From a virus, in the IMG/VR virus record IMGVR_UViG_3300024999_000081, positions 1 through 64,000 of that record: DNA of 64,000 bases; one strand, given 5' to 3'. The notes under the pieces are model-generated. The model was given only the letters and a program-made list of their open reading frames with translations, ran no database searches and had not been told where the DNA came from. Both the position numbers and the translations under genes were made by a program. Within the stretch, counting starts at the first letter, position 1; every line of letters begins with the position of its first letter. This document shows, in pieces, positions 1,528 to 40,566 of the stretch.

Positions 1528-2451
1528 ATGAGAGTAAAATTATTTACACATACAGATTTAGATGGAATAGGGTGTGCCATTATTGCGAAATTAGCATTTC
1601 CAACAGTAGATATTGAATATTGCAACTATGATGATGTAAATGAAAAAATCCTAAACTATGTGACAGCAGATGGATATAAGAATTTCGAATTAACATATAT
1701 CACAGATATTTCAGTAAATGAAGAAGTAGCAGAAATAATTGACGGTATTAATAAGCCAGAAAGTTTTGTGTTATTAGATCATCATAAAACTGCATTATGG
1801 TTGAATAAATACAAATGGACTTGTGTTAGTGAATACATTGATGAAAATACTAAACACAGTGGAACTGAAATGCTTTATCATAATATTATTAATTATTATA
1901 TTAACGAAGTGGAGTTTAGACATGTTGACTTGACAAATGCATTTGGTTTTGTAGAAATAGTTAGACAATATGATACATGGGAATTTAAGACTAAGTATAA
2001 TAATATTCTACCGAAACAAGTAAACGATTTGATGTATTTGCTAGGAAGAGATGAGTTTATTGATAATGCCATATATCAAATAATTATGTTGCATGAGTAT
2101 AAATTAACTGTAGATAATTTTATGTTACTGAAAAAGAATCAAGAGAAAATTGACAAATACATAGAATCAAAAGATAAATCAATTATTGTTACGGATATTC
2201 AAGGATATAAAGCAGGAGTTGTATTTGCTGAAAGATATTCTTCTGAATTAGGGAATAAATTATCTGAATTGCACCCTGAATTAGACTTTATTGCAATTAT
2301 TAACCCATCTCACTCAGTAAGTTATAGGACAGTAAAAGATGTTGATTTGAGTGTTATCGCTGGAGTGTATGGTGGGGGAGGGCATACTCAATCTAGTGGA
2401 AGTCCCATTAGTAAAGAAATGAAGAATAATATACTTGATTTATTGTTTTAA
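1528..2451 (+). CDS. DHH-superfamily phosphoesterase, copy 1 (NrnB-like)
   Basis: A 307-residue DHH/DHHA1 protein, probably a nano-RNA or cyclic-nucleotide phosphodiesterase of the NrnB (YngD) type. Visible signatures are HTDLDG (residues 8-13, metal-binding motif I), the aspartate in YITDIS (about 58-62), the DHH triad (84-86) in LLDHHKTA, and the C-terminal GGGGH (about 282-286) of DHHA1. Such enzymes use two Mn ions to hydrolyse short RNA or pNp-type substrates. Residues 212-286 are encoded by 225 bases identical to copy 2 at 9722-9946, which shows recent exchange between the paralogues. The start follows GCAGG-AATAAATAA. Confidence 0.85.
   Translation: MRVKLFTHTDLDGIGCAIIAKLAFPTVDIEYCNYDDVNEKILNYVTADGYKNFELTYITDISVNEEVAEIIDGINKPESFVLLDHHKTALWLNKYKWTCVSEYIDENTKHSGTEMLYHNIINYYINEVEFRHVDLTNAFGFVEIVRQYDTWEFKTKYNNILPKQVNDLMYLLGRDEFIDNAIYQIIMLHEYKLTVDNFMLLKKNQEKIDKYIESKDKSIIVTDIQGYKAGVVFAERYSSELGNKLSELHPELDFIAIINPSHSVSYRTVKDVDLSVIAGVYGGGGHTQSSGSPISKEMKNNILDLLF
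2161..2385 (+). repeat. 225-bp perfect direct repeat, copy A
   Basis: Every base from 2161 to 2385 matches 9722-9946. The identity starts and stops abruptly inside both DHH genes: the flanking codons differ (TAC/TAT before, ACT/CCT after). It covers the DHHA1 substrate-binding domain up to the GGGGH motif. Confidence 0.95.
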
Positions 2452-2482
2452 ACTAATATAAAATTAGAAAGAAGGAAATAAA

Positions 2483-2746
2483 ATGTTAGAACAAATCATT
2501 AAAGATGAAATCGAAACCATAATTCAAGAAAAAGGATTAACTAAAATTATTAAAGATGTTGTTCGCAGTAAAATGTCTAATGAAAATATTCAGAAAATAA
2601 TTGAGATAGAAATTGATAAGTTATTACCTGAAGCAATTTCAGAGAGTGTAGGTTATCAACTTTTAGATAATGGAGCAGTTCATAATATGGTTTATGTAAA
2701 ATTACAAGATATGGTTAGAGATAAGATTTCTGATTGGAAATTATAG
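2483..2746 (+). CDS. helical hypothetical protein
   Basis: This 87-residue, highly charged and almost entirely helical protein follows a GAAAGAAGG site. It has the same general layout as the protein at 22107-22355 (short helices rich in I, E and K, ending in a basic helix), but I cannot show they are homologous. It overlaps no recognised domain. Confidence 0.7.
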   Translation: MLEQIIKDEIETIIQEKGLTKIIKDVVRSKMSNENIQKIIEIEIDKLLPEAISESVGYQLLDNGAVHNMVYVKLQDMVRDKISDWKL

Positions 2747-2766
2747 AAAAAGGGGTGAAAAAAGCA

Positions 2767-2940
2767 ATGAGAAATCCAGATAGAATTGATGAGATTATTG
2801 AAGCATTGCGTGATTGTTGGAAACAATATCCTGATTTAAGACTAGGACAATTGATTTATAATCTAAATAAATTTGGAAATAGAGATGTGTTTTATCCAGA
2901 AGATGATAAGTGGCTAGAATGGATTAAAGAAGGTAAATAG
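2767..2940 (+). CDS. small hypothetical protein, 'MRNPDRID' type
   Basis: A 57-residue protein. The ATG at 2767 is chosen over the overlapping upstream ATG at 2734 because it follows an AAAAGGGGTG site and begins with MRNPDRI, the usual N-terminus of this small family in Gram-positive phages. It consists of two helices, a DLRLGQLI segment and an acidic YPEDDKWLEWI tail. Function unknown. Confidence 0.75.
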   Translation: MRNPDRIDEIIEALRDCWKQYPDLRLGQLIYNLNKFGNRDVFYPEDDKWLEWIKEGK

Positions 2941-2973
2941 ATGAATAAATAATATCAAATGGAGGGAATTGAT

Positions 2974-3630
2974 ATGAAGAAATATATTATCATATTAACT
3001 ATCGGAGCATTATTCGCTACAAATATTTATCTAAAATATCATAACTTATCAGTGCCAAAACCTATACCAACAGAGCAAACGCAAATAAATTTAGAAAATG
3101 ATTATTATCAAAAAGAAATTGACAGAGAGTTAGAACTTAAAAAGAAGATGCAAAATCCAACTATTATTAGGAATGAAATAAGAAAAGTCGGCAAATTAAC
3201 TAGCCTAGATGGTCAGTACAAATATCAAAGCAAAATAATTGATAAAGGATTTATGGACTTAACATTAAGGGAAATTACATTAGATTTTACTTATAACTTT
3301 GGTTTGGGAATGGATTTGCAATACATAACTGTATACAAAGTGGAAAATAAAACTGTATATATTAAGATACCCAAGAATCGTATTCAATTACATTACATAG
3401 AACTCAATGGGAATAGTCGAATCATAGAAGGTAAAAAGATGATACTGGTCAATCAATTTAGTCCTTCAGATACAGAGATATTAATGGAGCAATCACAGCA
3501 AAATGTTGTCAATATGATTGGTGCTGATAAGGGGTTATTCAATGATGCAATGATTAATATACAGGAACAATTGGAGAAATTGGTTTTGAGTTTGGAGTAC
3601 TATGAAAATGTTGTGTTTCAAGAAGTTTAA
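2974..3630 (+). CDS. membrane-anchored DUF4230-like protein
   Basis: A 218-residue protein with a lysine pair and one N-terminal hydrophobic segment (residues 3-19), then an extracytoplasmic domain. The ATG at 2974 is chosen because it lies 7 bases after GGAGGG; the in-frame ATG at 2959 is inside that site. The domain (initial helix, 'RKVGKLTSLDGQY', alternating strands, C-terminal helices) resembles DUF4230 proteins of unknown function; this assignment is tentative. Probably attached to the outer face of the cytoplasmic membrane. Confidence 0.6.
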   Translation: MKKYIIILTIGALFATNIYLKYHNLSVPKPIPTEQTQINLENDYYQKEIDRELELKKKMQNPTIIRNEIRKVGKLTSLDGQYKYQSKIIDKGFMDLTLREITLDFTYNFGLGMDLQYITVYKVENKTVYIKIPKNRIQLHYIELNGNSRIIEGKKMILVNQFSPSDTEILMEQSQQNVVNMIGADKGLFNDAMINIQEQLEKLVLSLEYYENVVFQEV

Positions 3631-3643
3631 GGAGGAAAATTAA

Positions 3644-3823
3644 ATGAATAATATCAAATTAAAATTGTTTTGGTTGTATGTTCAAACCAAACTATTCAAA
3701 TTGTTATCGATGCTTATTAAACTATTTGGGTGGATAGTAGTTGGATTGATATACACAATAATTTTCGGAGGAATATTAGCTTTGTTTGCTATACCAATTG
3801 TATTATTATTCAAATTAATTTAA
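3644..3823 (+). CDS. small membrane protein
   Basis: A 59-residue protein starting at ATG 3644 behind GGAGGAAAATTAA. An amphipathic, aromatic N-terminus is followed by a long hydrophobic stretch (about residues 24-56) that can form one or two transmembrane segments (GWIVVGLIYTIIF, ILALFAIPIVLLF). No family recognised. It directly follows another membrane-anchored protein, so the two may act together. Confidence 0.65.
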   Translation: MNNIKLKLFWLYVQTKLFKLLSMLIKLFGWIVVGLIYTIIFGGILALFAIPIVLLFKLI

Positions 3824-28635: not shown

Positions 28636-29217
28636 ATGAAACAAGTCAAAATATTATGGACATTTTTAATAGTATTCATGTTAGCACTTCAACCTATGAT
28701 TACATTAGCAAAAAGTTCTTCAACATCATCTAGCAGTAAACCTTCTACTTCTACTAGTACTTCAAAAAATTCTAATACAGCACCAAAAAGCTCAATTGAT
28801 TTAAGTAAAAAACCAACTTCGTCTGGCACTTCTACTTCATCAACATCGACTAGTGTGAGTAAAAGCGTACCTTCTACAAGTGGTTTAACAAGTACAACGA
28901 GTTCAAAATATATTCCACCAAGCAATACCACTGTAACAAAGAAAACATTTTTAGGTTCTACATATAGCAATGGCAATAGCACATCATTTCATTTTGGAGG
29001 AACACCTTATAATTATGGGTATCATCCTAGATTTACTCCTAGTTGGTATAGTCCTTATTGGTACAATCCATATTACTACATGCATCCTGCACCTGTAATC
29101 GTAACAAGTGGTGACTTTGGATTTAGTTTCTTGATTATGTTAATTATCTTAGGAGCAATTGGTTATGGAGTTTATAGATATATTAAGCGAAAAAATACTC
29201 TTGATGTTAAAAAATAA
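28636..29217 (+). CDS. secreted/membrane protein with Ser/Thr-rich and Tyr-rich regions
   Basis: A 193-residue protein: signal peptide (about 1-25, ending ITLAKS), a long Ser/Thr/Lys region (26-100), an aromatic region (YNYGYHPRFTPSWYSPYWYN), and a transmembrane helix (about 163-183) with a basic cytoplasmic tail. Likely displayed outside and anchored by the C-terminal helix. It lies directly upstream of the TerD/TerC genes and may be part of that envelope-stress group. Confidence 0.65.
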   Translation: MKQVKILWTFLIVFMLALQPMITLAKSSSTSSSSKPSTSTSTSKNSNTAPKSSIDLSKKPTSSGTSTSSTSTSVSKSVPSTSGLTSTTSSKYIPPSNTTVTKKTFLGSTYSNGNSTSFHFGGTPYNYGYHPRFTPSWYSPYWYNPYYYMHPAPVIVTSGDFGFSFLIMLIILGAIGYGVYRYIKRKNTLDVKK

Positions 29218-29239
29218 AAAATGTAAGGGGAGATTAAAA

Positions 29240-29951
29240 TTGATTAATTTAGTTAAAGGCCAAAAAATTGATTTAACCAAAGATAATCCAAATTTGCAAC
29301 AGGTTAATATGTGTTTGGGTTGGGACTCAATTAAAGAAGGTAAAAAGAAAACCAAAATTAAGAAAAAGGGATTCTTCAATACTTTAGGAGAAGTATTTCA
29401 AGGTAAAGCATCGTTAAGACAGGTGGTAGATAGTATAACTTCGTCTGCATCTAATGCAGTAGATGATATTATTGAATCACAACATCAATCTAATATTGAC
29501 ATTGATGCTTCAGCAATAGTTTTGCATAATGATAAATATATTAATGGTTCAAATGATTTAGTTTACTATGGTAATACACGCCATTATAGCGGATCAATAA
29601 ATCATTCGGGAGATAATTTAACTGGTGAAGGAGATGGAGATGACGAAATAATCAATGTTAACTTTAGCCAAAATTCCTTCAAATGTAAACAAAGTAGTAT
29701 TTGTAGTAAATATTTATGGTTGTCAAAGTAGGAAACAGCATTTTGGTATGATTTCAAATGCTTATATTAGAGTAGTTAATCCGTTAATTAATCAAGAACT
29801 TTGTAAGTTTGATTTAACCGACGACTATTCAAAACATACTGCTATTTATGTAGCTGAACTTTATCGACATAATGGCGAGTGGAAATTTACTGCTATTGGG
29901 GTTGGATCAAAAGATACATCAGTAAAGGATATGACACGTAAATATAGATAA
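29240..29951 (+). pseudogene. TerD-family protein with insertion and frameshift
   Basis: Starts with TTG behind AAGGGGAG. The frame encodes TerD-like sequence (VKGQKIDLTK, DIDASAIVLHND, SGDNLTGEGDGDDEIINVN) with an extra basic segment of about 50 residues after LGWDSI. At 29663-29665 one surplus T shifts the frame; the rest of TerD (LAKIPSNVNKVVF..., ISNAYIRVVN, VAELYRHNGEWKF) continues in the next frame to 29951. TerD proteins bind Ca2+ through acidic loops and take part in tellurite and envelope-stress resistance. Unless slippage occurs, the product is truncated. Confidence 0.75.
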
Positions 29952-29991: not shown

Positions 29992-30570
29992 ATGATTAAT
30001 TTACAAAAAGGGCAAAAAATTGATTTGACAAAGGGGAACCCAAGTTTAAAAAAGGTTGTTGTAGCTTTAGGTTGGAGTCCTCAAACAAAAGTTGGAGAAC
30101 AATTTGATTTAGATGCTTCTGTATTCATGGGAAATTCTAATGGTAAATGCATGAAAGATGAAGATTTTATTTTCTACAATAATCTTAAACATTCTTCTGA
30201 GGCAGTTATTCATTCTGGGGATGATCATACAGGAGATGGAGAAGGTGATGATGAAGTCATTACTGTTGATTTTTCTAAAATGCCAATCAATATTGAAGAA
30301 TTAGATTTTATTGTAACAATTCATGATGCACATAATCGAAGAAACCAAAATTTTGGTCAAGTAAACGATGCTTATGTTAGGGTTTTAGATCCTGAACAAA
30401 ATAATATTCAATTATTAAAATTTGATTTAGGTGAAGATTTTTCCGTTGAAACAGCAGTATCAGTTTGTAAAATTTATCGTAAAGATGGAGAATGGAAGTT
30501 CTCTGCCGAAGGTGTTGGGTATGCTCATGGGTTAGATGGATTTGTTAGAGATCATGGATTAATGGCATAG
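29992..30570 (+). CDS. terD: TerD-family stress protein
   Basis: A complete 192-residue TerD protein. Signatures: 'LQKGQKIDLTKGNPSL', 'VALGWSPQ', 'FDLDASVFM' (acidic Ca-binding motif), 'HSGDDHTGDGEGDDE' (second acidic loop), and 'YRKDGEWKFSAEGVGYA'. TerD proteins bind Ca2+ and associate with TerC at the membrane, contributing to resistance to tellurite, some phages and colicins. It follows a broken paralogue and precedes terC. Confidence 0.9.
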   Translation: MINLQKGQKIDLTKGNPSLKKVVVALGWSPQTKVGEQFDLDASVFMGNSNGKCMKDEDFIFYNNLKHSSEAVIHSGDDHTGDGEGDDEVITVDFSKMPINIEELDFIVTIHDAHNRRNQNFGQVNDAYVRVLDPEQNNIQLLKFDLGEDFSVETAVSVCKIYRKDGEWKFSAEGVGYAHGLDGFVRDHGLMA

Positions 30571-30592
30571 AGAAAGGAAGTAATAAATAATA

Positions 30593-31339
30593 ATGAATGA
30601 ATTTATAAACAATATTCTTATCAATCTACATCACTTCAATCTTGCGGAACTAAAAATGGTATTTCAAAGTCCTCAAGATATACTCCTGATACTTTCTCTA
30701 GTTGTTATGGAAGTTATCTTATCTGTTGATAATGCTCTTGTGTTGGCGATTATGGTGAAAAATCTTCCAAAGAAGCAACAAAAATTGGCGTTAACGTTGG
30801 GTATTGCTGGTGCTTATACATTTAGATTGATAGCAATTGTTCTTGGGGTATATTTAGTTAAGATTGCTTGGATTAAGTTGGTTGCTTCATTGTATCTTGC
30901 TTACATAGTGTTTAATTTCTTCAAAAATAAAGATGAAAATCACGATGAAGTCAATGATGCTTTGCAAAAAGGGTTGCTTGCAACAATCGTATCAGTAGAA
31001 CTAGCCGATATTGCTTTTAGTATTGATTCAGTAGTTGCAGCATTCGGAGTATCAGATATACCTTGGGTAATTCTAATTGGTGGAATGGTTGGTATTTTAT
31101 GCATGAGGGAAGTTGCTCAAGTATTTGTGAAATTAATCGAGCGTGTTCCAGAGTTAAATTATACTGCTCATATTTTAATTGGGATTGTTTCACTAAAAAT
31201 GTTTGTTGGTGTATTTGGTATCGAAGCCCCTGATTGGTTATTTTTAAGCACGCTATTTACTACTTTTATTGGTACATTCGTAGTTCATAGATTTAGAAAG
31301 TCATCGAATGGGAGTGGGACTAATGAAAAATACGTTTAA
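30593..31339 (+). CDS. terC: TerC-family integral membrane protein
   Basis: A 248-residue protein with about seven hydrophobic segments. Typical TerC motifs are 'VMEVILSVDNALVLAIM' and 'VSVELADIAFSIDSVVA', whose acidic residues lie in the membrane and are proposed to bind metal (Mn or related ions). TerC exports or senses metals and works with TerD. It is in one transcription unit with two TerD genes and a small membrane protein that overlaps its end. Confidence 0.9.
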   Translation: MNEFINNILINLHHFNLAELKMVFQSPQDILLILSLVVMEVILSVDNALVLAIMVKNLPKKQQKLALTLGIAGAYTFRLIAIVLGVYLVKIAWIKLVASLYLAYIVFNFFKNKDENHDEVNDALQKGLLATIVSVELADIAFSIDSVVAAFGVSDIPWVILIGGMVGILCMREVAQVFVKLIERVPELNYTAHILIGIVSLKMFVGVFGIEAPDWLFLSTLFTTFIGTFVVHRFRKSSNGSGTNEKYV

Positions 31340-33662: not shown

Positions 33663-33935
33663 ATGAAAATGTTTAAAAAGAGTGTAGTAACCCCTTCCAT
33701 GATGATTGACAATGCAGTAGGTATTGTAGATAGTGCAGTAACCGCATTCAAAATTGCGGTTGCTAAAATAGATCAAGCCAATGAGATGTTAACTCAATCT
33801 AAAGAACAAAGCCAAGCAAAGATCGAAGCATTAGAACAAGAATTATTAAATCATAAACAAGTTAAAGAGGATGCTGAAGCAAAAATTAATTCACATTTAG
33901 AGTTAAGGGATAAATTAAGTCAATTTGTGATGTAA
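33663..33935 (+). CDS. coiled-coil protein
   Basis: A 90-residue protein: N-terminal 'MFKKSVVTPSMMIDNAVGIVDSAVTAF' followed by a long coiled coil (about 40-85). Proteins of this plan are common in phages, role unknown. Last gene before the 420-base leader region of the replication block. Confidence 0.65.
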   Translation: MKMFKKSVVTPSMMIDNAVGIVDSAVTAFKIAVAKIDQANEMLTQSKEQSQAKIEALEQELLNHKQVKEDAEAKINSHLELRDKLSQFVM

Positions 33936-34029
33936 AAATAACTACCTCAAGAAATTTTGATTTTATGGGGTTATTCCCAAAATGACAAAATATACAGGTT
34001 TTAAGTAAAAATCACTAAAATAGCCCTGT

Positions 34030-34050
34030 AACCGTTGCTACATAAGGGTT
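34030..34050 (+). repeat. TTGCTACA hairpin, third copy
   Basis: AACC-gttgctacataa-GGGTT, related to the elements at 11188 and 4982. It lies in the 33936-34232 gap, which otherwise holds only the promoter at 34155; I see no gene there. Confidence 0.4.
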
Positions 34051-34135
34051 TATGGTCATTAAATAGGCATAAATAATTATGTTATATATGGCATCCTTTG
34101 AAAGTGGAATTTTATCTGGTTTATGTTTTTGTTAG

Positions 34136-34183
34136 AAGTAATAAATAATATTTGTTGACATGGTTTTGGTTGTATGGTATAAT
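34136..34183 (+). promoter_or_regulatory. consensus promoter of the replication block
   Basis: TTGACA (34155-34160), 17 bases, TATAAT (34178-34183), preceded by an AT-rich element nearly identical to that at 21676. Transcription should start near 34190, giving a leader of about 165 bases before the ssDNA-binding-like gene. Confidence 0.8.
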
Positions 34184-34232
34184 TATTAAGTAGGTTAAAA
34201 ATAAATAATATTTTAGAGAAAGGACTGATTGG

Positions 34233-34304
34233 TTGAAGAATAAAGGTAATTGTTGGAAACCTGTCAAGAGAAGCAAACCGCCTCCTTCTTTCAATATATT
34301 TTAA
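34233..34304 (+). CDS. 23-residue leader peptide with Pro-Pro-Pro
   Basis: TTG 34233 lies 8 bases after GAAAGGA. The peptide is LKNKGNCWKPVKRSKPPPSF followed by NIF and a TAA at 34302. The codons for Pro-Pro-Ser-Phe-Asn-Ile are exactly the left arm of the hairpin 34283-34345, whose right arm holds the ribosome binding site of the next gene. A Pro-Pro-Pro run is a known cause of ribosome stalling (relieved by EF-P). This is the layout of translational attenuation; the peptide itself need not have a function. Confidence 0.65.
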   Translation: MKNKGNCWKPVKRSKPPPSFNIF

Positions 34305-34345
34305 TAGATCATGTGAATAATAAAATAAAAATATTGAAAGAAGGA
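34283..34345 (+). promoter_or_regulatory. 15-bp hairpin masking a ribosome binding site
   Basis: TCCTTCTTTCAATAT (34283-34297) is perfectly complementary to ATATTGAAAGAAGGA (34331-34345), which contains the AAAGAAGG site of the gene at 34355. The loop is 33 bases. A ribosome occupying the leader ORF would cover the left arm and free the site. Confidence 0.75.
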
Positions 34346-34354
34346 ATACATATA

Positions 34355-35602
34355 ATGGCAAAAGTTAAAGATGAACAATTAGGTCTAAAAAAAGGTAAAG
34401 CACAATTCCTACTCATCGGTGAAGCAAAAGTAAATGATTATACTTTCACAATGGATAAAGATACTACAAAATCAGATTGGGTTTGGAATCAAATGAATCT
34501 TGGTGTAGATTGTGGAAATGGAAATGTTATCTATTCAGATATGATGGGTGGTTACGGATCAGAAAGAGATAATGTAGTATATGTTCATGGTATAAAAGAA
34601 GTAGATGGTAAAAAACAAGAAGACTTTGATAATAAATTTACCATTGATTGGGACGATAGATTTGACGAAACAATTCTTGAATCTGTGGCAGACTCTTGTT
34701 TCATCAAAGTTGGTTTAGAAAAAGATACAAAAGATAAGACGTTCAAAAATAAATTTTTATCTGCCTATGATGCAATTCAATACATACAACAACATCTTGA
34801 AAATGGAATGGTAGTAAATGTTAAAGGAAAATTAAAATATCAAGCTTATAATGATAGTGTATCTATTAAGAAAGAAGTAAATTCTGTATTCTTATCAAAA
34901 GCAAAACCAGAAGAATATAAAGCAGTATTTACACAAACATTGCTTTGTGACGCAAATGCAGTTGGTAAATTAGATAGAGAAAAGGCATCATTTCCAATTA
35001 CAGGATATGTAGTTGATTATGTCGGTAAATACGATGGTAAAGAAATTAAGAAAACAGTTGCATTTACAAAGACATTTGAACTAGAAGTTGATAAGGCAAA
35101 ACCAGAAAATACAAAGAAACTTATTGCTAAATGTTTTGCTCCTGCTAAAAAAGGCACTCTTGTTGAAGTAACAGTAGAAGGAGAAATGCTTGAAGGGGCA
35201 AGTGTAGTAAGCATTACACTAGATGATCTTCCAGAGGATATTCGAGAACTTATTGAACTTAATGTTATCACAGAGGAAGAGGCTCTTAGTAAATGTGCAA
35301 TTGGTGGTAATAAAGAAAAAAGAATGCTTATTAAAAGACCTTTAATTACATTTGAAGGTGAAGGAGAAACAAAAGTTCCAATTTTGGCAATCAATAAAGA
35401 TAAATATAAAGAAAGTGATTTAGTTTTCCTTTCTCAATTTATTGAAGTTGAAGAAGAGAAGGAGGAAGAAACAGAAGATTTAGAAGAAAGTGTTACTGAG
35501 TTTGAAAAAGCATTAGATAAGAAAAAAGAAGATGATGATACTGAGGATGACGAAGAAATAGCAGTTGATGATGAAGCATGGATGAAATTGTTAGATGTAT
35601 AA
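34355..35602 (+). CDS. ssDNA-binding-like replication protein
   Basis: A 415-residue protein starting at ATG 34355 behind AAAGAAGG. It heads the replication block and has a conserved phage sequence ('LNLGVDCGNGN'-like region, 'YDAIQYIQQHLENG', 'VVNVKGKLKYQ') consistent with OB-type beta domains. The C-terminal 55 residues are highly acidic and end in DDEAWMKLLDV, like the protein-interaction tail of SSB proteins. It most likely binds single-stranded DNA at the fork, though I infer this from the tail and position, not from a diagnostic motif. Expression is probably controlled by the leader hairpin. Confidence 0.6.
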   Translation: MAKVKDEQLGLKKGKAQFLLIGEAKVNDYTFTMDKDTTKSDWVWNQMNLGVDCGNGNVIYSDMMGGYGSERDNVVYVHGIKEVDGKKQEDFDNKFTIDWDDRFDETILESVADSCFIKVGLEKDTKDKTFKNKFLSAYDAIQYIQQHLENGMVVNVKGKLKYQAYNDSVSIKKEVNSVFLSKAKPEEYKAVFTQTLLCDANAVGKLDREKASFPITGYVVDYVGKYDGKEIKKTVAFTKTFELEVDKAKPENTKKLIAKCFAPAKKGTLVEVTVEGEMLEGASVVSITLDDLPEDIRELIELNVITEEEALSKCAIGGNKEKRMLIKRPLITFEGEGETKVPILAINKDKYKESDLVFLSQFIEVEEEKEEETEDLEESVTEFEKALDKKKEDDDTEDDEEIAVDDEAWMKLLDV

Positions 35603-35713: not shown

Positions 35714-36694
35714 ATGGGATTTCAGAAAAAAGAAGAAGTATTAGCGTATGTAGGTGGTAAAGTATTAGCATTTGGGGCAACTGGGTCAGGAAAATCAACG
35801 TTTGCAGGTACATTTCCTAATATTAATTTAGTAGATAGTGAAGATGGTAATACATATTATCTTGAAAGTAATCCTAATATTATTGGAGTTATGCGTACAA
35901 CATCTGCATCTGAGGTTCAAGAAACATTAGATGAATTAAATGATGAGGAAGCATTAAAAGATTTTGATACTATTGCAATTGATAGTGGAACAAAATTATA
36001 TGAAAATATGCAAGCAGCGGCGTATGAAGTTGTTGAAAAAAGATCAAGAAAACAAATGAGAAAAGGTAAAGAAGTAGATATGGGAGACCTGGGTTTGGCT
36101 ACAAGAGATTGGGGTCATATTAAAAGATGGAATCAAGCTCTAAAAACAGCATATATTATATTTTCATCCCTCGGCAAGTGGGTAGTTGAAATTGCTCATC
36201 AAAAAGATATTTTCGATGATCCATCTTCTCTTAATAAAAAGAAAATTGGAGAAGCACCGGATTTAGCTAAGAAGGCAGAACATGATTTTGATATTGTACT
36301 TCAAATGTTTACTAAAGAAGATAAAGATGGTAATGTAACTTACTTTGGTAAAATTTATAAAGATAGAACTGGAGTAACCAAAAAAGGAGAGATCATTGAA
36401 AATCCTTCTTTTGAAATTTGGAGAGCAAAATGGGAAAGCACAAAGAAATTTGGAGTTAAAAAAGCATTAGACTTATCAGTAGGGGTAAGTAAAGACACTG
36501 AATTTATGGAAGCAGAAGATGAACAAGCAGAAGATGTTGCTAACCAAATTAAAGCATTACTAAAAACTAGTTCTGAAGAAAATCAAAAGAAGATTGGAAA
36601 GAAAATTAGAGACTTAGAAATCAATATCAAAGATTTAGTTAATAATGATATTGAAAAATTGAATCAAGTGTTAGAATTCGCCGAAATGCTGTAA
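35714..36694 (+). CDS. RecA-like AAA ATPase (Sak4-like)
   Basis: A 326-residue ATPase with Walker A 'FGATGSGKST' (about 20-28) and Walker B 'DTIAIDSGTK' (about 80-90). Layout and length match phage RecA-like ATPases of the AAA_24/Sak4 group, which promote single-strand annealing and recombination together with an SSB. It lies next to the ssDNA-binding-like gene, as usual for this family. The C-terminal 80 residues are charged and helical, unlike the core. Confidence 0.8.
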   Translation: MGFQKKEEVLAYVGGKVLAFGATGSGKSTFAGTFPNINLVDSEDGNTYYLESNPNIIGVMRTTSASEVQETLDELNDEEALKDFDTIAIDSGTKLYENMQAAAYEVVEKRSRKQMRKGKEVDMGDLGLATRDWGHIKRWNQALKTAYIIFSSLGKWVVEIAHQKDIFDDPSSLNKKKIGEAPDLAKKAEHDFDIVLQMFTKEDKDGNVTYFGKIYKDRTGVTKKGEIIENPSFEIWRAKWESTKKFGVKKALDLSVGVSKDTEFMEAEDEQAEDVANQIKALLKTSSEENQKKIGKKIRDLEINIKDLVNNDIEKLNQVLEFAEML

Positions 36695-38807: not shown

Positions 38808-39848
38808 ATGACCTCTATTGAATTAAAACAATACATATTAGATAATAATAAACTACAAGAAATACTAAAATCCCTAGATTGTCATGGTATTAAGGAATAC
38901 ACCAAAGAATTAAGATGTGGATTGCCCAATCATACATCTAATAATAATATTGCAATAAATAAAGAAACGTTATCTACTAAAATATTTCAATCTGATAGTG
39001 AAATAATAAGAGGTGATCTGCTAACTTTAGTTATGACAATAAAAAATATTTCATTTCCAGAAGCAAATAAATATTTACATAAGTTACTTGGCTTAGAGTA
39101 CAAATTTAAAATAAAAGAAGATAAATCTGATAAAAAAGATCCATTGAACGTATTCAAGAAAGTTAAAAGAAAAAGATGTGTTGTTAATCTAGATGACATT
39201 GAGTTGTATGATGAAGGAATTATTAAAGAGTACATTCCATTACCTCACATTGATTGGATAAGAACAGATGGTATTCTACCATTTACATGTGAATTATTTA
39301 AAGTTGGTTATAGTGCAGATAAGAGAAGAATTACACTTCCTTGGCGTATATGGTATGGGGAAGAAAATGATTTTGCGGGTGTGATAGGGCGTACAACCAT
39401 AAAGGAATATTCCATGTTGGATATCCCTAAATATTTTCCATTGAAGAAGTTTCCTAAATCAATGCATTTATATGGATTACAAGAAAATTACAAAACAATT
39501 CAAGAGGCAGGTTATGTTTTGGTTTACGAATCTGAAAAATCAACATTAAAAAGACACAGTAGAAAAGATGGTACTGGAGTATCTATTGGTTCTCATTGTC
39601 TAAGCGAAGAGCAAGTAAAAATATTGATTGGATTGAACGTATCTGTGATTATAGCTTATGACAAAGATGTATCTTTACAATATATTCGTTCTGAATGTGA
39701 AAAATTTAAATTTATTAGACCAATATATTTTATATATGATAAATATGATTTGCTTGAAGATAAAATGAGTCCGGCAGACGCAAGTAATACTATTTTTAAT
39801 TATTTATTAAAACATAAAATAAAATATGATAAATCTGAACATAAATAA
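38808..39848 (+). CDS. DnaG-type DNA primase
   Basis: A 346-residue protein. The N-terminal part has a CHC2-like zinc site (C at LDCHG, then C-G-L-P-N-H, about residues 24-45). The TOPRIM domain shows the catalytic Glu in 'VLVYESEKST' (about 244-253) and the metal pair in 'IIAYDKDVS' (about 284-292). It makes RNA primers. It is shorter than cellular DnaG and lacks the helicase-binding domain. Its end overlaps the upstream frame of the HNH gene. Confidence 0.8.
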   Translation: MTSIELKQYILDNNKLQEILKSLDCHGIKEYTKELRCGLPNHTSNNNIAINKETLSTKIFQSDSEIIRGDLLTLVMTIKNISFPEANKYLHKLLGLEYKFKIKEDKSDKKDPLNVFKKVKRKRCVVNLDDIELYDEGIIKEYIPLPHIDWIRTDGILPFTCELFKVGYSADKRRITLPWRIWYGEENDFAGVIGRTTIKEYSMLDIPKYFPLKKFPKSMHLYGLQENYKTIQEAGYVLVYESEKSTLKRHSRKDGTGVSIGSHCLSEEQVKILIGLNVSVIIAYDKDVSLQYIRSECEKFKFIRPIYFIYDKYDLLEDKMSPADASNTIFNYLLKHKIKYDKSEHK

Positions 39849-39873
39849 TATACGAAAGAAGATTGATATAACA

Positions 39874-40566
39874 ATGAATAAAAAATTAGATGTTGAGTTA
39901 AAAGTTAATAAAAGTAAAAAATATATAAATGATTCAATATGGGAAACTAATAATTTTGGTAAGATTAAAATAATTGGTAAAATTGATAAATCACATTATC
40001 TAGTAGAATTTATAGATGATGGAACACAGGTAATCACTCAAGGAGGTTCTATTTGTGGTAAGACAGTTAAAAATCCATATTATCCATTAATTTATAATAT
40101 TGCATGTCTAGGAAGGATATCTCAATATCATTTTTTACATAAAAGATGGGAAAGTATGATAATGAGAATTTATGATAAAAATTGCAAAGCATATAAAAAT
40201 TACGGAGGAAGAAATATAGATATTGATTCAGAATTATTATGTTTTGAAAATTATGTTGAATATATTTCATCATTAAATAATTATAATGATTTAGTAAATA
40301 ATAAGAGAAAATATGATATTGATAGAATAAATAATGATGAAGGATATAAAAAAGGAAATATAAGGATAGCTACTCATTCTATAAATCAAAGAAATACTAG
40401 AAGTAATAATATTATTAAAATGAGTAAAGATAATGTAATCATAGATGAAGATATTATTATAAGATTAGTAGAAAAATATCCTCAATATGATTTAAGACAA
40501 GGTGGAATTAGTTTTGTCGTTAATGGAAATCAAAAATCACATAGGGTTTTACTTTTGAAAAAGTAG
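39874..40566 (+). CDS. HNH homing endonuclease, free-standing
   Basis: A 230-residue protein with the phage HNH layout: 'RWESMIMRIYDKNCKAYKNYGGR', 'FENYV', then 'YDIDRINNDEGYKKGNIRIAT' (about 150-172) carrying the catalytic HNH/N region and an N-rich tail. Such enzymes are selfish elements inserted between genes; it sits between primase and nuclease genes. A weak site (CGAAAGAAG) lies 14 bases upstream of ATG 39874. Confidence 0.8.
   Translation: MNKKLDVELKVNKSKKYINDSIWETNNFGKIKIIGKIDKSHYLVEFIDDGTQVITQGGSICGKTVKNPYYPLIYNIACLGRISQYHFLHKRWESMIMRIYDKNCKAYKNYGGRNIDIDSELLCFENYVEYISSLNNYNDLVNNKRKYDIDRINNDEGYKKGNIRIATHSINQRNTRSNNIIKMSKDNVIIDEDIIIRLVEKYPQYDLRQGGISFVVNGNQKSHRVLLLKK

Follow-up and report, generated by a model that had tools for sequence, protein, structure and literature searches.

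The window, which is the whole 64,000-nucleotide stretch of DNA analyzed here, is part of a 76-kb viral fragment with 28% G+C. On its plus strand, a gene encoding a 415-aa SSB-like protein with a two-OB fold and an acidic tail (34355–35602; phrog_2367, E 5e-41) is followed in the operon by a gene for a Sak4-like / AAA_24 ATPase (35714–36694; PF13479, E 2e-13; phrog_124, E 5e-20). The region preceding the SSB-like gene opens with what is, by sequence, a perfect promoter of the sigma-A type (TTGACA-17-TATAAT, 34155–34183), which agrees with the consensus at 12 of 12 positions and has an extended -10 element with TG before the -10; the transcript would begin at about 34190. A Shine-Dalgarno sequence (SD) kept in relatives, GAAAGGA (34218–34224), then serves a leader ORF of 23 codons that starts at the TTG at 34233, ends with the TAA at 34302–34304 and encodes the peptide MKNKGNCWKPVKRSKPPPSFNIF. 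Within this peptide, the core P-V-K-R-S-K-P-P-P (34260–34286) includes at codon 17 (34281–34283) an invariant proline that is the proposed pause point. The last leader codons contain the left arm (34283–34301) of a hairpin whose right arm (34327–34345) holds the SD of the SSB-like gene, GAAAGAAGG, and whose loop contains an A-rich tract of UAAA repeats (34316–34330), a repeat that is enriched here relative to other genes of the window. All of these features lie on the same strand.

An Rfam scan of the window yielded no match. Transcription attenuation with a leader peptide was rejected because no Rho-independent terminator-like site was found in 33900–34700, and a minimal ORF within the loop, which reads ATG TGA in the window, was also discarded, as it is not conserved among relatives. 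Elsewhere, the phage fragment carries TerD (PF02342) and TerC (PF03741) genes at 29992–31339 of the window, near which a second TerD-like reading frame (around 29159–29951) looks broken, and an ORF amid the replication genes (39826–40566) contains the sequence 'YDIDRINNDEGYKKGNIRIATHSINQRNTRSNN', which is like the C-termini of HNH homing endonucleases and had no Pfam match.

The nature of the downstream gene was assessed through structural models. The AlphaFold model of the window protein matches the two-OB SSBs of D. radiodurans and Thermus (best E 1.5e-5), and models of both main clusters of downstream proteins match two-OB SSBs of Thermus / Deinococcus, pointing to an OB fold of the SSB type. 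Each main cluster has representatives that match PHROG 2367. A profile comparison of the two SSB groups nevertheless found no detectable similarity between them, despite their common PHROG 2367 and PDB fold matches. Since the models of two PHROG 2367 members match two-OB SSBs, an SSB annotation is probably justified for this family, which is listed as of unknown function. Among the proteins encoded downstream of the leaders, no fewer than seven divergent SSB-like groups can be told apart; those represented by L013/L031 and by L032 are joined only by BLAST within the first cluster.

The two hairpin arms are exact reverse complements over 15 nt (34283–34297 and 34331–34345) and 95% complementary over the full 19 nt. 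When the transcript was subjected to 1,000 dinucleotide shuffles, its longest perfect inverted repeat had a mean length of 7.1 bp and was never above 12, so that none of the shuffles reached 15 bp. The complementarity to the SD of the SSB-like gene (-20.5 kcal/mol) is the strongest among 100 start sites in the window, the next value being -13.2. When folded, the RNA spanning 34190–34400 forms this very hairpin, leaving the SD with a mean unpaired probability of 0.014 in the free RNA and an opening cost of about 12 kcal/mol, whereas computational masking by a ribosome with P-site codons 15–23 raises that probability to 0.80–0.92. A pause at codons 16–17 would be expected, on the same computation, to cover most or all of the left arm. 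A preliminary description made from the sequence alone had reported the promoter, the 23-codon TTG leader with its GAAAGGA site and a perfect 15-bp pairing that includes the SSB SD, and had suggested folding the RNA with and without a masking ribosome; these elements are confirmed by the consensus match, by the relatives described below, by the shuffles and by the folding.

To gather relatives of the leader, viral contigs were scanned for related proteins, for leader patterns and for hairpin patterns, which yielded about 50 distinct leaders. The comparisons reported here are based on a table of 39 distinct complete leaders, from which a single row (L055) was lost because its contig ends inside the leader; further leaders were identified in L068–L070, L078, L098, L116, L118, L119, L123, L127, L180, L182, L187 and L188, and L066 and L067 were dismissed as chance or unrelated matches. 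The sequences come mostly from a few environmental projects, and the permutation and rank tests ignore kinship. In four family leaders, L048 (at about 1560), L053, L058 and L057 (at about 1350), the sole well-placed start behind a strong SD is ATA. Phage and plasmid records searched with the DNA of the leader gave only short low-complexity matches, and a scan of 85k bacterial and archaeal genomes for the hairpin returned three matches, all lacking a leader; hence, no copy in a sequenced host or prophage was found.

The relatives present three N-terminal types (KNKGNCW.., KTKAWGQV.. and KMTSFGM..), and most of the TTG 'KN' type leaders are preceded by the same TTGACA-17-TATAAT promoter. Leader length ranges from about 20 to 40 codons, with variation in the portion past the core, and the core itself, P-[IV]-K/C-(R)-x-x-[S/P/G]-P, is common to all types. 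Its second proline, corresponding to codon 17 in the window, is present in 39 of 39 leaders, encoded by any of CCT, CCA, CCC and CCG, and the scans behind the table did not demand it. Nor does its distance to the arm vary, even in L078 with its new hairpin sequence. A scan with a peptide-only pattern matched 19 contigs, all of which read as leaders and have an SSB-like gene next wherever the contig is long enough; these were not counted towards the invariance of the proline, since that pattern required it.

Two layers of selection can be distinguished in the leader. In the 15 codons that precede the arm, in-frame pN/pS is 0.37, 0.33 and 0.00 for the three N-terminal types, and shifted-frame controls give 1.0–3.1 or are undefined for want of synonymous changes, so that values below 1 are confined to the leader frame. 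Together with the SD and the start codon, these ratios indicate a translated short leader with its own ribosome site, and the coding sequence of that leader pairs with the SD of the next gene. The codons of the arm, on the other hand, are nearly fixed: the third Pro codon is CCT in 35 of 35 cases, Phe is TTC in 29 of 31, against a genome bias in which TTT makes up 76% of Phe codons in window genes, and AAT is found in 31 of 31. The arm RNA is also retained while being read in other frames (SFNIF, SIYF, SIIF; PPLSIYF, PPLSIIF). In-frame selection upstream and near-invariant arm codons together indicate that the first two thirds of the leader are kept as peptide and the last third as RNA. The third proline codon is always CCT because it pairs with the AGG of the SD, and it belongs to the RNA layer.

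These patterns bear on the simplest alternative, plain translational coupling, according to which the hairpin is opened by any ribosome that crosses the final third of the leader, no peptide-specific arrest is involved, and the peptide is kept for another reason or as a by-product. Such coupling agrees with the computed result that ribosomes at codons 15–23 all open the SD without needing to stall, with the location of the stop codon and last codons within or adjoining the arm, and with the variable leader length beyond the core. Coupling, however, needs only an open frame, and yet peptide selection spans the 15 codons upstream of the arm and a single proline is invariant, through four different codons, at a constant spacing from it that survives even in L078. 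We therefore regard coupling without arrest as unlikely, though it is the strongest of the alternatives.

Polyproline stretches are well established as sites of ribosome stalling, and the preliminary description had proposed that the PPP run of the window leader senses EF-P, stalling ribosomes when EF-P activity is low. The run is indeed placed so that a pause there would, by computation, free the SD. As a general mechanism, however, this proposal finds no support among the relatives: just 12 of 39 leaders have PPP, the remainder having SPP (most of them), GPP or, in the four leaders with KGPSS, a single proline, and the third Pro codon is dictated by pairing. Published arrest by RAPP-type peptides is refractory to EF-P (PMC12992588), which also counts against such a sensor, and we consider it very improbable. 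What is invariant is one proline together with P-[IV]-K-(R) upstream of it, a combination that resembles nascent-chain arrest. The residue preceding [SPG]P in the 39 leaders is K in 26, L in six, N in four, C in two and R in one, and L078 has RSPP; membership in the RAPP/RGPP class was rejected, as the Arg of R-A/G-P-P is found in one of 39 leaders. The candidate arrest motif P[IV]K(R)xx[S/P/G]P is likely to be new.

Selection on the pairing was evaluated across the same set. The two arms of the same sequence pair better than arms exchanged between the 39 sequences: only 10 of 20,000 permutations were equally good, for sequences that are related and not fully independent. RNAalifold on a MAFFT alignment of the leaders gave no consensus structure, because the arms shift register in L008, L015 and L019, and the arm-swap test and per-sequence duplexes were used in its place. 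As most core pairs are invariant, classical covariation is thin; compensated changes are nonetheless seen in L008 and L019, where the SD is GGAGG and the left arm has been altered to match, and in L015 the whole pairing is displaced. In L078 (data set 3300028800), the peptide is recognizable (NSGSGWHVVKRYRSPPN, ending at the stop, and MTNSGSGWHVVKRYRSPPN) and the hairpin sequence is entirely different, with the CUCC of the proline codons pairing with the GGAG of the SD, which suggests that the last third of this leader was re-derived with new sequence. A natural loss of the left arm is found in L065 (IMGVR_UViG_3300025011_001398), where a TnpB-encoding IS605-type element (2400–3770) is inserted in the hairpin and replaces the left arm, and where the leader start and the SSB gene remain. 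The preliminary description had suggested looking among relatives for compensatory changes, which are present (L008, L019, L078), and for conservation of PPP, which is not general.

Relatives of the SSB gene that lack a leader provide a natural comparison. Their mean SD opening cost is 0.89 kcal/mol (n = 27) versus 6.70 kcal/mol in leader-bearing relatives (n = 39; p = 9e-12, kinship ignored). With the SD open in leaderless genes and sequestered in leader-bearing ones, leader and sequestration are present or absent together. Among the leaderless cases are L107, at 69% SSB identity, L109–L117 except L116, L137 and the Thomasclavelia phage TR-TP2; in L137, the end of the upstream gene resembles that found before AWGQV-type leaders, and the SSB gene follows directly. 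Given the many SSB relatives without the module, it is not essential for SSB expression in general. The preliminary description had held that relatives devoid of both leader and complementarity would speak against a switch. Such relatives do exist, but the two are absent together, as expected of an optional module, and conservation, co-occurrence, compensatory change and folding all lend strong support to its broader claim of an erm-type leader/hairpin attenuator before an SSB-like gene.

Leaderless relatives also inform a further alternative, autogenous control resembling that of T4 gp32, in which the SSB-like protein would bind the UAAA-rich loop and hairpin region of its own mRNA and halt its synthesis, the leader merely resetting the RNA. 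The T4 gene 32 operator likewise serves the translational control of a phage SSB, works through a pseudoknot and autogenous repression, has no leader ORF, and carries UUAAA/UAAA repeats adjoining the ribosome site (PMC535899); the UAAA-rich tract of the present locus resembles the unstructured part of that operator. In keeping with this alternative, UAAA repeats per 35 nt upstream of the SD number 2.77 in leader-bearing and 2.07 in leaderless relatives, as against 1.17 for other window genes. The presence of the tract without a leader, however, means that it cannot explain leader and hairpin, and one cassette serves SSB-like proteins that are just 17–31% identical. Autogenous control is hence improbable as the explanation of the module, more so than coupling, but could constitute a second, older layer of control.

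The disparity between cassettes and the proteins they precede is pronounced. Leaders that are 92–100% identical at the DNA level precede SSB-like proteins within that range of low identity; the leaders of L030 and L032 are 100% identical and their proteins 20%, and for L005 and L041 the figures are 98% and 19%. Moreover, each of the three N-terminal types is found with several SSB groups. The occurrence of near-identical cassettes before divergent SSBs implies that promoter, leader and hairpin are exchanged as a unit by recombination, the regulatory element travelling separately from the gene under its control.

Taken as a whole, we favor, with a probability of roughly two in three, a translation attenuator of the erm/secM/toiL type with an arrest-like peptide controlling a phage SSB-like gene. 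When the leader is untranslated, 34283–34301 would pair with 34327–34345 and bury the ribosome site of the SSB gene, a step for which sequence, folding and covariation-type evidence all speak. According to the masking computations, a ribosome in leader codons 15–23 would cover the left arm and free that site, and masking at the conserved proline reduces the computed SD opening cost in 39 of 39 leaders. The arrest-like core P-[IV]-K/C-R-x-x-[S/P/G]-P may then slow or stall the ribosome once the invariant proline has reached the peptidyl-transferase center, and the pause would keep the SSB site open long enough for initiation. We infer this arrest from selection on the peptide and from the constant placement of the proline beside the arm; its strength and the signal sensed are likewise put forward from sequence. 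SSB synthesis would thereby depend on translation being under way, or on some condition of the infected cell that modulates the pause, through a cassette of promoter, leader and hairpin passed among phages with very different SSB-like genes.

Known leader-peptide attenuators control antibiotic-resistance, amino-acid and secretion genes. No described case of a leader attenuator for a phage SSB was found in the open-licence literature, an absence that is provisional. The arrangement is shared with ermCL-ermC, in which stalled translation of a short leader ORF frees a sequestered downstream ribosome site, but that system governs a resistance gene through a multi-arm switch, whereas here a single two-arm hairpin precedes a phage replicative SSB-like gene, the peptide motif is unrelated and no drug is known as inducer. 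The closest mechanistic analogue found in that literature is the toiL-topAI uORF of E. coli, where one hairpin joins the uORF to the SD of the next gene and a stall anywhere in the uORF opens it (PMC12121999). It senses several antibiotics and controls a toxin-antitoxin operon (PMC12121999), while the phage leader is under strong peptide selection, has a proposed proline pause site and is exchanged among phages. SecM and the RAPP-type peptides (ApcA, ApdA, ApdP) also combine an upstream ORF with a C-terminal proline-based core, and SecM-secA has an SD-sequestering stem (PMC7897499, PMC12992588); published stallers include RxPP motifs (PMC7897499) and EF-P-refractory RAPP/RGPP peptides (PMC12992588). 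The phage leader differs in its length of about 20–40 codons, in showing no evident secretion signal and in its SSB target.

A more specific proposal, which we advance tentatively and at somewhat less than even odds, is that of an exchangeable phage arrest-peptide attenuator dedicated to replicative SSB genes, swapped with or independently of the SSB gene, in which the new motif would couple SSB supply to the translation state of the host, for instance by responding to starvation, to the shut-off of host translation or to a defence reaction. The attenuator appears to govern, in many phages and across at least seven SSB-like groups, a protein that determines how fast phage DNA is replicated and recombined. 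The roughly 50 natural leaders and their paired leaderless controls make up a series for testing the co-evolution of nascent peptide and hairpin, and the system may show how phages gauge the state of translation in the host cell.
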